Position numbers and translations under genes: made by a program | In this document: one piece after another, positions 28,643 through 46,384 of the stretch | How positions within the stretch are numbered: position 1 is the first letter of the stretch | Layout: each line of letters opens with the position of its first letter | Notes under the pieces: model-generated | Told to the model about the DNA's origin: nothing | Seen by the model: the letters and a program-made list of their open reading frames with translations, nothing else | Databases searched by the model: none | IMG/VR virus record: IMGVR_UViG_3300021792_000001 | Span: 1 to 46,484 of that record | Reading direction: 5' to 3' (one strand) | DNA length: 46,484 nucleotides | From: a virus

Positions 28643-29157
28643 AGATACTCACCTCGCTCTAGTCCGTATATGTCATACGGGAAATTTTTAATGAACTCAC
28701 TCACTGTGCCAGCACCGTGAATGGTGTTGTAGTGATCTTTCCAATACTGTCCTAATGCCTTGATATCATTGGCTTTCGGCAATGCTTGCGGCTTTCGGTA
28801 GTAGTGCATTCGACACATTGCAATGGCGTAACGCAGATTCCAAATCAACGCCACGTGGTCAGGCCAGCCGTGCTGGTCATAGACAAGATCAACCGTGTCA
28901 CTAGTCATACTCAGCAACTTATCTCGCAACTCAGACTTAAACTTGATGAAGTTCAACCACAAATCTTTATGTGTTGCGGGCTCCATCTGGATAAGGCCTA
29001 GCGCTGGACCTTTGCCTAGCTGCTTTAAGTAAGAGCCGTTCGACTCTTGAGCAATCGTGCCCATCACCAACTGCTCAGCAGCCAATGAGTAAAGGCCGAG
29101 CTGCTCTAACGCAGGCTTAACAACGTACTCACGCAACTGTGCAAAGCTGATACTCAT
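28639..29157 (-). CDS. Endolysin, lysozyme-like muralytic enzyme (172 aa)
   Basis: A probable catalytic glutamate sits in AQESNGSYLKQLGKGPALGLIQMEP (residues about 31-55), the usual glutamate then GLIQ spacing of lytic transglycosylase/lysozyme folds. No signal peptide is present, so release depends on the holin. It overlaps the holin stop by 4 bp. The family is a Vibrio/phage transglycosylase-type endolysin by pattern; confirmation needs a profile search. Confidence 0.75.
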   Translation of the reverse strand: MSISFAQLREYVVKPALEQLGLYSLAAEQLVMGTIAQESNGSYLKQLGKGPALGLIQMEPATHKDLWLNFIKFKSELRDKLLSMTSDTVDLVYDQHGWPDHVALIWNLRYAIAMCRMHYYRKPQALPKANDIKALGQYWKDHYNTIHGAGTVSEFIKNFPYDIYGLERGEYL

Positions 29158-29441
29158 GGCAACCTCTTGAACTTACTCGTGTAAAAGCTGATAGCCTCAT
29201 CACCCATCAGGCCAGCCATACCAGCCATGAAGCCGATCATTGGCCCAGACATCCCCATCTCTGTTCCTAAGAAATAAGTGAGCATGCCAAGGAAACCGCC
29301 AGTAATAACGGTGATAAGTAATTGAATAATCGAGAAATCTTTAATCTTTTGCTTAATCTGCCGGAGATACTTCACAGCGCCTCCCAGAACGCCAACCAAG
29401 ACGAACGCAGCAATCTGAATCAGTTCATCTGGTAAGAATTT
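29154..29441 (-). CDS. Holin (about 95 aa)
   Basis: Start chosen at ATG 29441, because the longer frame to 29504 runs through a terminator hairpin. Three hydrophobic segments follow: IQIAAFVLVGVLGGAV, LLITVITGGFLGMLTYFLG and a glycine/methionine-rich MIGFMAGMAGLMG helix, with a basic tail (SKFKRLP). This fits a class I-type holin that times lysis. It is the first gene of the late operon. Confidence 0.72.
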   Translation of the reverse strand, partial: KFLPDELIQIAAFVLVGVLGGAVKYLRQIKQKIKDFSIIQLLITVITGGFLGMLTYFLGTEMGMSGPMIGFMAGMAGLMGDEAISFYTSKFKRLP

Positions 29442-29467
29442 CATATAGGCGATCCAGTCCAGAAACG

Positions 29468-29490
29468 AAAAAGCCCCGCGAATGCGAGGC
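29468..29490 (-). terminator. Late leader terminator just before the holin (tR'-like)
   Basis: GCCTCGC-ATTC-GCGGGGC followed by five T on the minus strand, 27 bp before the holin start. By analogy with lambda tR', it blocks late transcription until antitermination. The 21-bp sequence at 29459-29479 is repeated at 29662-29682. Confidence 0.75.
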
Positions 29491-29504
29491 CTAGAAATAG
29501 TCAT

Positions 29505-29967
29505 GTAACGCTACTTATTCACTAAAGGGGCGCGAACCCTACCTCATCCCTGCCTCACTGGGCCACTTCATGCGGGATACGTCGAAATCACATGTGATCT
29601 AACTGATAAAACGTGTGATCTAACACGCTAAGCAACTATGTAATCACTACATACCCACCTCCCAGAAACGAAAAAGCCCCGCTAATCAGCAGGGCCTCAG
29701 TTCGTTCACTTGCCGCGAACACAAAAATCACAGTATGAACAAAATGTACCTGCTAACTTCCCCTTTTTCCAGCCCTGCGCGCGCGTAAATCGAATTCTAT
29801 AGTCTTAATAGAACTCTATAACTAAGCACCGCAAAGCCTTACCACAAAAGACTTTAGCCTTTAACGCATATGCGGCATCGTGACGGCACTGTGACGGAAA
29901 ATATAGACACATCAAACCCAATAAAGTAGTATCCGCAACCAATTTCAGGGACGACTTTGGGAAATCA
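29505..29967. promoter_or_regulatory. Late control region (non-coding)
   Basis: No gene lies here. It holds the palindrome ATCACATGTGAT at 29587-29598, two direct copies of TGTGATCTAAC at 29593-29603 and 29614-29624 (21-bp pitch), and one of the two duplicated terminators. An AT-rich stretch with near-repeated TCTATA blocks lies around 29795-29825. It must contain the leftward late promoter and probably the rightward promoter of the 29968 gene, but I cannot fix either confidently. Confidence 0.55.
29671..29695 (-). terminator. Second late leader terminator, partial duplicate of the first
   Basis: GCCCTGC and GCGGGGC arms around TGATTA with a five-T run on the minus strand. It shares its 3' half and flank with the terminator 200 bp downstream, so the two arose by duplication or recombination. 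Confidence 0.7.
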
Positions 29968-30759
29968 ATGACTACTCTTTTATGTGACTATGTTAATTCA
30001 ATCGTGACAGCAGACACTCGATGGTCAATCGGTGGAAATCCTGCATCACCTTTAATATTGTCAGATCAAAAGCGCTCCTTAATTTATTGCGACGACACAG
30101 GTTTTGATAAACTGACACCATACCAAGATACATTTGTCTTGATGACGGCTGGCAGCTCTGAATATATAGCTAAGTGGAAAGAGTGGTGGTTAGTATCAAG
30201 GGACATGGCGAGCACGCCTCCGGTATGCGACGAAAATGGCATACCACAAGTAGCTTTAGCCATAGTCGACTTAGTCGATAGCACAACTCTATTTGATTTT
30301 GGGCTAGGTCATGCCCTATATTGTCAAGATGAGCAGATTGTGAAAGCTTTCTCTGCTGGAAGCGGAGGAGAGTTTGCAGCGGCCGCGTTATTTGAATGCG
30401 GATGTGCTAAAACATCCATTCAAATTGCAGCCTTATCGGATTATTGCACAAGCCCAGAAGTGAAGTTTGTGTGTAATACCACTAAACAAAATAATCTATC
30501 GCCCACAATTTATGATATTAACATCATCAATCAGGCTATAGTTTCAAGGGGATTCATAATGGAATTAAATCAAGCAGCAGTTAATAAACCAGTTAAACTT
30601 AGTGAGCACCCTCTTTTCAATGAGGTAGTAGCCCAGCTAGAGTCTGGAAAAACCGTTCCTTCTGCCCCAGCACCTCGCCTACATTCAGCAGAATGGACGG
30701 CTGAGACGGAATCTAAGTTAGCGAAAGCGATGGAAGTGGTTAACTCTCGCATTTCGTGA
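29968..30759 (+). CDS. Proteasome/HslV-like Ntn-hydrolase protein, moron (263 aa)
   Basis: The first 170 residues follow the proteasome beta/HslV pattern. Thr2 would become N-terminal after Met removal. TADTRWS near residue 14 matches the conserved aspartate strand, a lysine near residue 35 could match the catalytic Lys33, VLMTAGSSEY follows, and SAGSGGEFAAAALFECG (about residue 128) matches the GSGG turn and helix. The C-terminal 60 residues are an added polar, helical extension. It is transcribed against the late genes, has its own terminator and stands alone, so it is likely expressed in the lysogen. Activity and substrate are unknown. Confidence 0.65.
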   Translation: MTTLLCDYVNSIVTADTRWSIGGNPASPLILSDQKRSLIYCDDTGFDKLTPYQDTFVLMTAGSSEYIAKWKEWWLVSRDMASTPPVCDENGIPQVALAIVDLVDSTTLFDFGLGHALYCQDEQIVKAFSAGSGGEFAAAALFECGCAKTSIQIAALSDYCTSPEVKFVCNTTKQNNLSPTIYDINIINQAIVSRGFIMELNQAAVNKPVKLSEHPLFNEVVAQLESGKTVPSAPAPRLHSAEWTAETESKLAKAMEVVNSRIS

Positions 30760-30780
30760 AGCTCATAATATGACTTCATT

Positions 30781-30810
30781 GAAAAAGCCCGCACACTGCG
30801 GGCTTTTTTT
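30781..30810 (+). terminator. Intrinsic terminator after the Ntn-hydrolase-like gene
   Basis: AAAAAGCCCGC-ACACT-GCGGGCTTTTTTT. The symmetrical A and T tracts make it effective from both sides, so it also ends the leftward early operon after the second integrase. Confidence 0.88.
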
Positions 30811-30814
30811 GCGC

Positions 30815-31975
30815 CTATTTCAACCTAACAACACCCCCACTCAACGCCCCCACCGCCTCGACCATCAACGGCCAAGCGTATCGGGACTGATAACGCCCAT
30901 CCAGATCGGACTGGGCGTGGTTAAGCAACATTTCACCCACACGGCTATCAACACCACTTTCCTGCCAATAATCACGCGCTAATTTGCGCATATCATGGCT
31001 GGTAAACTTCTGGCCGAACTCAGCCGAAAGCGTCTGGTACCACTTACTTACCGTACTGGTGTGAACAGGCTTCTTACCATTTTGAGAAAATACAAACTGA
31101 CCACCGCGTTTGGCCTTAGCCTCACGAAGCATCGACACCACTGCAGGTGCGATCGGCACTTTATGTTCAACACCCGTTTTCGTATTTTCAGCAGGGATAT
31201 ACCAAACCGCCTCATCAAGTGAAATATGCGTCCACTCAACTAAACACGTTTCCTCAATACGAGTCGCATGGCACAACTGCATAGTAAAAAACAAACGCCG
31301 CCAAAACTGACTTTCACGGATACACGCCGCCAGATCCGGCAACTGATAAGGCTTAATGCGCCCCGATCGCGCTGTTTCCTTATCTTGGGTAAAGTCACGC
31401 CAGCCCACATTCGCCAACGGATCGCGAGCAATCAAGCCCAACTTACCCGCCAGCGAACACGCACGCTTCAAGACGCCCCACACCTTATGCAGCGTCGACA
31501 CCGCCAAAGTAGACTGCTTAGGCATATAAACCCGCTTATAAAAATCCGTCTTAGACAGCAACTTAATCGCCACATCGCCCAGCGACCCCATCAAATGGTT
31601 ATAAATACAACTTTGGGCCGACGCCACATAACCCGCACTAAATGACTTATCCGCTTCGATATGATCCGCAAACCACAGCAACAGTGCTGACACATCCTTA
31701 ATCTGCTCAACCTTAGCCGACGAACGCTCACCCGCCATCAACTGAGTGCGGATCTCGCTTAACCGCTTAAACAAATCCGACGCCTTCAGTGCCGGCCATT
31801 TACCAAGCACCGTCCGCAGCTTCCTCTTGCCCTGGTAACGAACATCGTAAAACGTCCCGCCGGTGCGAGACACATTCGCCCGAAACTCAACACGGCGAGA
31901 ATCAAACAGCCATTCCTTATCACCCGCTGATAAAGTCGCACGAATCAGCGTATCCGTAATACGCTTAGATACCAC
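30815..31975 (-). CDS. Second tyrosine recombinase (386 aa), last gene of the early operon
   Basis: All catalytic positions are visible: Arg in HATRIEETC, Lys in ENTKTGVEHKV, HxxR in SHDMRKLARD, a His in LLNHAQSDLDGRYQ and the tyrosine just after (GRYQSRY). The N-terminal part resembles the arm-binding domain of P4-type integrases. GTG 31975 follows GGAG and overlaps the upstream gene by 11 bp. It is 14 kb from the right att and does not neighbour any att sequence. It occupies the place where lambdoids keep Q. It may resolve multimers, act at another site, or be a captured integrase. Confidence 0.85.
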   Translation of the reverse strand: MVSKRITDTLIRATLSAGDKEWLFDSRRVEFRANVSRTGGTFYDVRYQGKRKLRTVLGKWPALKASDLFKRLSEIRTQLMAGERSSAKVEQIKDVSALLLWFADHIEADKSFSAGYVASAQSCIYNHLMGSLGDVAIKLLSKTDFYKRVYMPKQSTLAVSTLHKVWGVLKRACSLAGKLGLIARDPLANVGWRDFTQDKETARSGRIKPYQLPDLAACIRESQFWRRLFFTMQLCHATRIEETCLVEWTHISLDEAVWYIPAENTKTGVEHKVPIAPAVVSMLREAKAKRGGQFVFSQNGKKPVHTSTVSKWYQTLSAEFGQKFTSHDMRKLARDYWQESGVDSRVGEMLLNHAQSDLDGRYQSRYAWPLMVEAVGALSGGVVRLK

Positions 31976-44569: not shown

Positions 44570-44880
44570 GCGAGTTCATTAAGCCTAAATGGCCACGCAA
44601 ACAACGCATTCGTGATTACGCCAAGCAGCACTTTACTGACCCTGAAAAAGAGTTATCACGCTTACGCCGCCAACTAAAGGCTGGCGAATTACCGGGCATT
44701 TTGGAAGGAAAACTATGGTTTGTGTGGATTTTACCAGATGGCCAACCCGCGTATGGTTACAGTGAAGACGCACCAGTAAAGCCAGAAGTGAAGCGAGTGG
44801 AGCAAATCTCAACAGGTAACGCGATCGCAGACGCGATCCTTTTCAAACACGAAATTAAGCAAGGCACGGAATTACGATGA
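44566..44880 (+). CDS. xis: Excisionase-like protein (104 aa)
   Basis: The N-terminal half has a winged-helix of the excisionase type (RIRDYAKQHFTDPEKELSRLRRQLKAGELPG, then EGKLWFVWIL). Basic and adjacent to int with a 4-bp overlap, the usual Xis-Int order. It would bend DNA at attR and drive excision. The C-terminus is longer than lambda Xis (72 aa). Confidence 0.75.
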   Translation: MSEFIKPKWPRKQRIRDYAKQHFTDPEKELSRLRRQLKAGELPGILEGKLWFVWILPDGQPAYGYSEDAPVKPEVKRVEQISTGNAIADAILFKHEIKQGTELR

Positions 44881-46112
44881 ACCCACCAAGACCCAACCAA
44901 CTAGCACGCAATTTAAAGGTAATGCGTAACAAGTCCGGTACGTATTACTACTACAAAATGCCTGACGGAAAGCTAGAAGCGTTGGGCAAGAACATTGGTG
45001 ATGAGGTCGCACGAGATGCGGCCACCGCCCTAAACATTGCGTTAGCTGATCAAGAGTCATTGGTAAACCGTATCGCTCGCCGTGCCGAAGAGCTGAAAAC
45101 CTACAATCCAAGTAATCCGCCAATGAGCCAAGTGCTGGATGAGTTCAAGCACACGCTAGAAGTTGCAGTGGCTAACAAAAAGCAGGGCAAAGAAACAGTT
45201 AAGATCAAGCTGGGTAAGATCGACGAATATATGCAGCTGTGGTCAAAGATTCGCGTACAAGACATGCGCACCTTTGACCTAAACAATCTGCTGAAAACCA
45301 AAACACCACACGCCCAAAAAAAGCATGCACCACTGATGCGCGATATCTTCCGCTATGCGATCACTGCAGGTTACTGCGACATCAACCCAGCCGATCAGCT
45401 CAAAGCACAAGAGCCTGATCCGCGCGTTCGCCAACGCCACACCTGGGACGGCTTTATGAAAGTGTACCAAACGGCACCCGATTGGCTAAAACGTGCCATG
45501 GACATTGCGCTTTACAGTCTGCAACGTCGTAGCGACTTAGTAGAGATACAGATCGCCCGTGACATCGACACACCAACACGTTCGATCAAGATACTGCAGC
45601 GTAAAACGCGCAACTACAAAACACCAGTGCACCTAAGCATCAAGATGGGTGATCCACTATGGCAAGCCGTACACAGCGCTATCACCAGCCCAACGCACTG
45701 CCCTTACCTGATTCATTGCAGACCAGGGCGAATGGATAAGCGCGACCTAGCTGCTAAACCACACCCATTTGCGGTATTGCCAGATTACCTGACCAAAAAG
45801 TTCAGAGAGTTTCGAGATAAAAGCGGCGCTTACGATCACCTAGCACCAAAAGAACGCCCATCGTTCCACGACATCCGCGCACTAGGCATTATGCTCTACT
45901 TCAAAGCGGGATACCCAAAAGAATACATCATGGCACTGGCTGGCCACGCCACTGCAGAAATGACTGATCACTACATCGACGGCCACGAACAAGCCCAACC
46001 ACTAAGAGTCGCAGCTGGGCTCGACATTACTAAAGTCGACATGAACAACATCAACTGGAAAGACCACCGCATACCAAGCGAGTTGGTTAAGCTGATGGAT
46101 GAAGAGGGCTAA
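44877..46112 (+). CDS. int: Prophage integrase, tyrosine recombinase (411 aa)
   Basis: Catalytic residues are all in place: Arg in LQRRSDL, Lys in ILQRKTRNYKT, HxxR in FHDIRALG, His in LAGHATAEM and the nucleophilic Tyr in TDHYID. The N-terminal 60 residues form an arm-binding domain (YYYYKMPDGKLEALG); residues 80-165 form the core-binding domain. It ends 195 bp from the right tRNA repeat, so it is the integrase for this site. The stop lies inside the following terminator hairpin. Confidence 0.93.
   Translation: MNPPRPNQLARNLKVMRNKSGTYYYYKMPDGKLEALGKNIGDEVARDAATALNIALADQESLVNRIARRAEELKTYNPSNPPMSQVLDEFKHTLEVAVANKKQGKETVKIKLGKIDEYMQLWSKIRVQDMRTFDLNNLLKTKTPHAQKKHAPLMRDIFRYAITAGYCDINPADQLKAQEPDPRVRQRHTWDGFMKVYQTAPDWLKRAMDIALYSLQRRSDLVEIQIARDIDTPTRSIKILQRKTRNYKTPVHLSIKMGDPLWQAVHSAITSPTHCPYLIHCRPGRMDKRDLAAKPHPFAVLPDYLTKKFREFRDKSGAYDHLAPKERPSFHDIRALGIMLYFKAGYPKEYIMALAGHATAEMTDHYIDGHEQAQPLRVAAGLDITKVDMNNINWKDHRIPSELVKLMDEEG

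Positions 46113-46301: not shown

Positions 46302-46384
<83 letters not shown>

Follow-up and report, generated by a model that had tools for sequence, protein, structure and literature searches.

A proteasome-like protein with a C-terminal extension, encoded in a variable cargo slot of a prophage related to those of Marinomonas

P0001, a gene in a prophage related to those of the marine bacterium Marinomonas, in all likelihood encodes a functional proteasome-like enzyme of the PPH/RPC type, which the prophage carries as cargo. The sequence analysed, referred to here as the window, is the whole 46,484-nucleotide stretch of the virus record IMGVR_UViG_3300021792_000001. Feature coordinates are collected in Table 1.

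In 2021, Fuchs, Alva and Lupas described 22 new proteasome-like subfamilies with functions unassigned (PMC8665760). These include PPH, of about 140 residues and present in phages and prophages; AAH, a proteasome homolog subfamily also found in phages; and RPC, which is related to PPH, has a C-terminal extension and is listed for Proteobacteria (PMC8665760). The novelty of P0001 is limited by these descriptions. HslV-like genes have also been reported for Salmonella phage pSal-SNUABM-04, with the express statement that HslU is missing (PMC7823757), and for Alteromonas phage V22 (PMC7289586), and numerous phages of Vibrio, Aeromonas and Rhizobium carry similar ones. The paper on JSS1_004 was set aside, as it mentions HslV as a host gene only. 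The initial annotation of P0001, made from the sequence, considered such a self-standing gene unusual; this is not supported, as HslV-like proteins that occur in phages without HslU are common and already described in the literature. Viral proteasome homologs are widespread, and the clean genetic setting of P0001 makes it well suited to finding their function.

Table 1. Features of P0001 and its surroundings, in window coordinates
Feature	Position	Strand	Evidence
P0001, proteasome/HslV-like Ntn-hydrolase gene, 263 aa	29968..30759	+	ORF; PHROG_1040; profile match; structure; purifying selection
Ntn-hydrolase core, residues 1-170	29968..30477	+	hhalign to phage PPH profile (1-166); VIA alignment to HslV
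C-terminal extension, residues 171-263 (~93)	30478..30756	+	missing from aligned PPHs; pLDDT pattern; dN/dS 0.16
Thr2 codon, expected catalytic N-terminal Thr1 once Met is removed	29971..29973	+	Met-Thr(-Thr) start kept in 30 sequences, one has Ser
Asp16 codon (proteasome Asp17)	30013..30015	+	invariant in alignment
Lys48 codon (proteasome Lys33)	30109..30111	+	invariant in 30 aligned sequences
Gly62 codon (oxyanion-hole Gly47)	30151..30153	+	invariant in alignment
GSGG motif, residues 131-134	30358..30369	+	G131, G133 invariant; S132 nearly invariant
Second tyrosine recombinase (int2), slot neighbour	30815..31975	-	PF00589 E 2e-19; phrog_1 E 2e-43
Holin, other slot neighbour	29154..29504	-	phrog_785 E 3.5e-20
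Weak promoter-like site upstream of P0001	29904..29932	+	9/12 consensus matches; partly conserved in L001/L002
Symmetric (bidirectional) intrinsic terminator, P0001/int2	30781..30809	.	hairpin -19 kcal/mol, z -4.2
Variable cargo slot	29905..30814	.	edges inferred from sibling prophages

The gene and its prophage

P0001 is an intact open reading frame of 263 codons, which opens with ATG and reads Met-Thr-Thr. Copies at 92% amino acid identity were found in two viral contigs and in the prophages of two Marinomonas species, and the copies in both viral contigs are identical to the chromosomal ones of Marinomonas piezotolerans and M. atlantica. The dN/dS ratio is 0.08 overall, 0.06 for the core and 0.16 for the C-terminal part. 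Synonymous changes thus greatly outnumber non-synonymous ones, which indicates a maintained protein; on these sequence comparisons, P0001 is a real gene under strong purifying selection.

The distribution of the gene is narrow. It is present in 2 of 48 Marinomonas genomes, within this prophage type only, and a tblastn search of phages and plasmids gave no real match. A match in a Sinorhizobium phage was rejected because it lies antisense inside an unrelated gene, and a weak hit in a different genome belonging to the same order was taken as chance, there being no proteasome-like reading frame at that place. Profiles were run against 369, 340 and 398 genomes; they detected HslV, PPH and BPH-like genes, but no other relative of P0001 with an extended C terminus.

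The window carries genes for terminase, portal, head protease, capsid, tape measure, holin and lambda O- and P-like replication proteins, together with a repressor-like gene and two tyrosine recombinases. As judged from this gene set, the element is a temperate siphovirus. The prophage of M. piezotolerans is collinear with the window over nearly its whole length and lies inside a 567-kb contig. The prophage of M. atlantica has only the early side and the P0001 slot in common with the window; its late genes differ. The internal tyrosine recombinase (int2; 30815-31975, minus strand) is conserved among sibling prophages and adjoins the cargo slot, while the terminal one (44877-46112, plus strand) adjoins a tRNA-Val gene (46308-46384) and varies among siblings.

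To the left of P0001, between 29504 and about 1.4 kb, lie the late genes, which run leftward. Since these genes and the recombinase on the right are all read leftward, P0001 is divergent from its left neighbour and convergent with its right one. The orientation against the late genes, and the presence of a terminator, are as originally annotated; the strong terminator hairpin, which carries both an A-run and a T-run, is common to P0001 and the convergent int2. Promoter-like sites are about as many in the window as in shuffled sequence, so that by count the site upstream of P0001 is at chance level. A further terminator-like hairpin (29673-29698, minus strand) lies between P0001 and the holin gene, with similar ones upstream of the holin in sibling prophages; it may insulate the late genes.

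Fold of P0001

The PHROG_1040 profile ('peptidase HslV family') matches residues 1-169 of P0001 with an E value of 6.4e-9, using the single sequence as query. As a control, the same profile also matches in well-known genomes in which HslV or proteasomes are encoded. A profile-profile comparison with hhalign aligned residues 1-166 of the P0001 family to seven HslV-like phage PPHs (E 6.9e-7), and the profile of these seven in turn matches the solved BPH (4e-6) and HslV (9e-6). Scans of P0001 against Pfam, NCBIfam and PADLOC gave no match, and the NCBIfam equivalog cut-off for HslV was not reached. A sequence search of solved structures with P0001 alone returned a colicin only, which was judged to be chance.

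AlphaFold2 was used to predict the structure of P0001. With the PPH alignment, the core was modelled with a pLDDT of about 85, while a prediction made from three near-identical close relatives alone gave a pLDDT of 31. The model thus depends on the PPH alignment, and the homology rests first on the PHROG_1040 and PPH profile matches. Structures of HslV are the best match to the model (Z 13.3, rmsd 3.0 over 137 residues), with a VIA alignment to HslV that spans model residues 2-172, and Foldseek matched the model to a proteasome beta subunit (E 4e-6). This is the comparison that had been proposed as a check on the original assignment to the proteasome beta-subunit fold, and it agrees with it: the model has the alpha-beta-beta-alpha arrangement of the family, and it is virtually certain that P0001 adopts a proteasome-like fold. 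Between a long helix (64-77, following the strand 56-62) and the strand 95-101, there is no second long helix in the model. PPH and RPC are both reported to lack helix H2 (PMC8665760).

Active site

The active site was examined in an alignment of 30 sequences, 27 of them phage relatives. Positions T2, T3, D7, D16, K48, G62, G131-S132-G133, A137, G144, A147, A154 and D158 are invariant or nearly so. By this alignment, P0001 has an N-terminal nucleophile and the equivalents of Asp17, Lys33 and Gly47 of the proteasome, at T2, D16, K48 and G62 respectively; the roles of Thr1, Asp17, Lys33 and Gly47 are taken from PMC8665760. The N-terminal threonine, the ADTR strand (residues 15-18) and the GSGG motif pointed out in the initial annotation are all present. 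Its catalytic lysine near position 34 corresponds most likely to K35; that residue is not conserved, and K48 takes this place. Because the threonine directly follows the start methionine, no autocatalytic propeptide is expected.

It is concluded that the active site is very likely intact. That P0001 is a peptidase seems probable, with rather less confidence. A proteasome-like fold does not in itself imply proteolysis, since connectase, a member of the same family, is a monomeric ligase (PMC8665760). Our search of the literature for biochemical data on any PPH or RPC found none.

C-terminal extension

The PPHs in the alignment end at 130-190 residues. P0001 continues to residue 263, and its additional part, of about 93 residues, is longer than the 60 residues first estimated. 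In the AlphaFold2 model, the tail consists of a low-confidence linker and one confident helix (245-262).

Relationship to known systems

In a tree of 52 core sequences, P0001 groups with the PPHs of Pseudomonas phage M1 and Alteromonas phage V22 (support 80/80), and HslV forms a separate clade (support 100/96) with P0001 outside. The branch leading to the P0001 family is very long, at 2.99 changes per column, and support for its placement is moderate. P0001 is an unusually divergent, C-terminally extended variant that branches, at this moderate support, among the PPHs of marine phages.

P0001 resembles PPH in having the threonine directly after the methionine, the Asp/Lys/Gly site, and a modelled compact core with neither propeptide nor helix H2; it also resembles PPH in its location in a phage genome with no AAA+ partner. 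The setting, a chromosomal prophage of M. piezotolerans with the gene set of a temperate siphovirus, matches the tailed phages and prophages in which PPH occurs. It differs in sequence, with about 20% identity, and in the extension, which makes it far longer than the typical PPH. RPC was compared by description only: like P0001, it is proteobacterial and joins a core related to PPH to a C-terminal extension whose fold is unassigned (residues 171-263 in P0001), although in the published table its entry under Proteobacteria bears no phage mark. The gene 206 product of Aeromonas phage 4L372XY (QEG08921, 275 aa) is likewise a phage PPH with a long C-terminal extension. However, its extension is not recognisably similar in sequence to that of P0001, it belongs to another PPH branch, and it comes from a myovirus described as likely virulent, in which a second HslV-like gene adjoins.

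HslV (ClpQ) has the same fold and active-site residues as P0001, but differs in its low identity (about 20%), in the extension, in the separate clade and in that the phage has no HslU. BPH, the best match of the PPH profile among solved sequences, and connectase are both members of the proteasome-like family; P0001 differs from them in its long extension and phage context, and the connectase insertion is not seen in it.

The HslV/PPH-like genes in 4L372XY form a tandem pair (929-1480 and 1498-2325 of contig L133), and an apparent second such pair is found in contig L080 (941-1501 and 1501-1953). These tandem genes hint at hetero-oligomers.

The cargo slot

P0001 lies alone in a slot between int2 and the lysis genes. 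The slot was surveyed with the adjoining recombinase as query, a relative of which is present in 16 of the 48 Marinomonas genomes, and the six closest siblings lacking P0001 (L121 and L123-L127) were compared. In all six, other genes occupy the slot, which runs from the recombinase stop codon to the lysis genes. Most of them are oriented against the recombinase, and a proteasome-like gene is not among them. The GC3 of P0001 (0.36) is the lowest of 22 window genes compared. Given the variable slot, the low GC3, the opposite strand and the patchy distribution, there is good evidence from the sequences that the slot is exchangeable and P0001 a moron, in agreement with its first description as a lone prophage moron: it is accessory, has its own orientation and terminator, varies among related phages and is deviant in composition. 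It is a favourable test case, being strongly selected and the only cargo gene in its slot of a chromosomal prophage, with the sibling prophages carrying other genes in the slot as natural controls.

Two siblings carry regulators of the Aca2/YdiL type in the slot (L123 3730-4218 and L124 3786-4274, minus strand). The L123 protein matches PF08965 (E 8e-26) and the L124 protein is recognisably alike by eye. Together with slot neighbours of 77-296 residues and of no known function, these regulator genes form candidate anti-CRISPR or anti-defence operons, and the slot looks like a place to seek anti-defence genes in Marinomonas phages. PADLOC assigned no defence family to P0001 and gave one marginal JAB match, to a RadC-like cargo protein. 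In two other siblings (L121 4999-5799 and L126 2833-3597), the slot encodes apparently homologous cysteine-rich, zinc-ribbon-like proteins of 254-266 residues; a family scan of one of them gave no match.

Possible role of P0001

P0001 would be transcribed alone from the prophage. Removal of the start methionine would expose Thr2, which, to judge from the alignment and model, would act as nucleophile together with Asp16, Lys48 and the Gly62 oxyanion hole. The product is most likely a small peptidase, probably oligomeric, that works without a dedicated AAA+ unfoldase. The extension may serve as an adaptor or interaction arm that chooses a substrate or partner, and the enzyme might then inactivate a protein of the host or of a competing phage, to the benefit of the prophage.

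Our best guess at its role, a weak and tentative one, is anti-defence or competition between prophages, for example superinfection exclusion. Independent action that helps the prophage against host defences or rival phages is favoured because of the slot, and this step is a weak one: the evidence is the company that P0001 keeps there, where most cargo neighbours match no known function. The more specific proposal, that P0001 is a stand-alone, AAA+-independent effector of counter-defence or superinfection exclusion with the extension picking its target, is doubtful as a whole. If it is true, this would be the first function for a viral proteasome homolog, as far as the literature shows.

Only slightly less plausible than the anti-defence role, and still unlikely, is that P0001 serves host physiology by lysogenic conversion or stress proteolysis. 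Its own transcription unit opposing the late genes would suit this, as would UmuC-like and RadC-like proteins (named from sequence) among the other slot cargo, but its restriction to one prophage type in 2 of the 48 genomes and the Aca2/YdiL-type regulators at the same slot speak against it.

The initial annotation saw no HslU context for P0001, and no HslU-like protein was found in the window. P0001 could act independently on specific or unfolded targets, or it could use the host HslU. An HslV-like match is present in 48 of 48 Marinomonas genomes searched, and HslU adjoins HslV in the one genome inspected (L006). P0001 might therefore join host HslV rings or dock on host HslU, redirecting or blocking the host HslVU, as the similarity of its model to HslV would allow. 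We regard this as improbable, because the core shares only about 20% identity with HslV and clusters among PPHs instead, and a long extension replaces the C-terminal side.

A connectase-like protein ligase, or another highly specific transferase, is less probable again. The family precedent and the missing AAA+ partner are consistent with it, and the additional C-terminal part could select the substrate. However, the two-helix insertion of connectase between strands 3 and 4 is not seen in the model, in which residues 34-45 at that place are of low confidence, and the closest relatives of P0001 are PPHs, to which no activity is assigned. Finally, a decaying or non-functional phage reading frame, which would fit the narrow distribution and long branch, is scarcely credible in view of the dN/dS of 0.08 and the complete conservation of the active-site residues.
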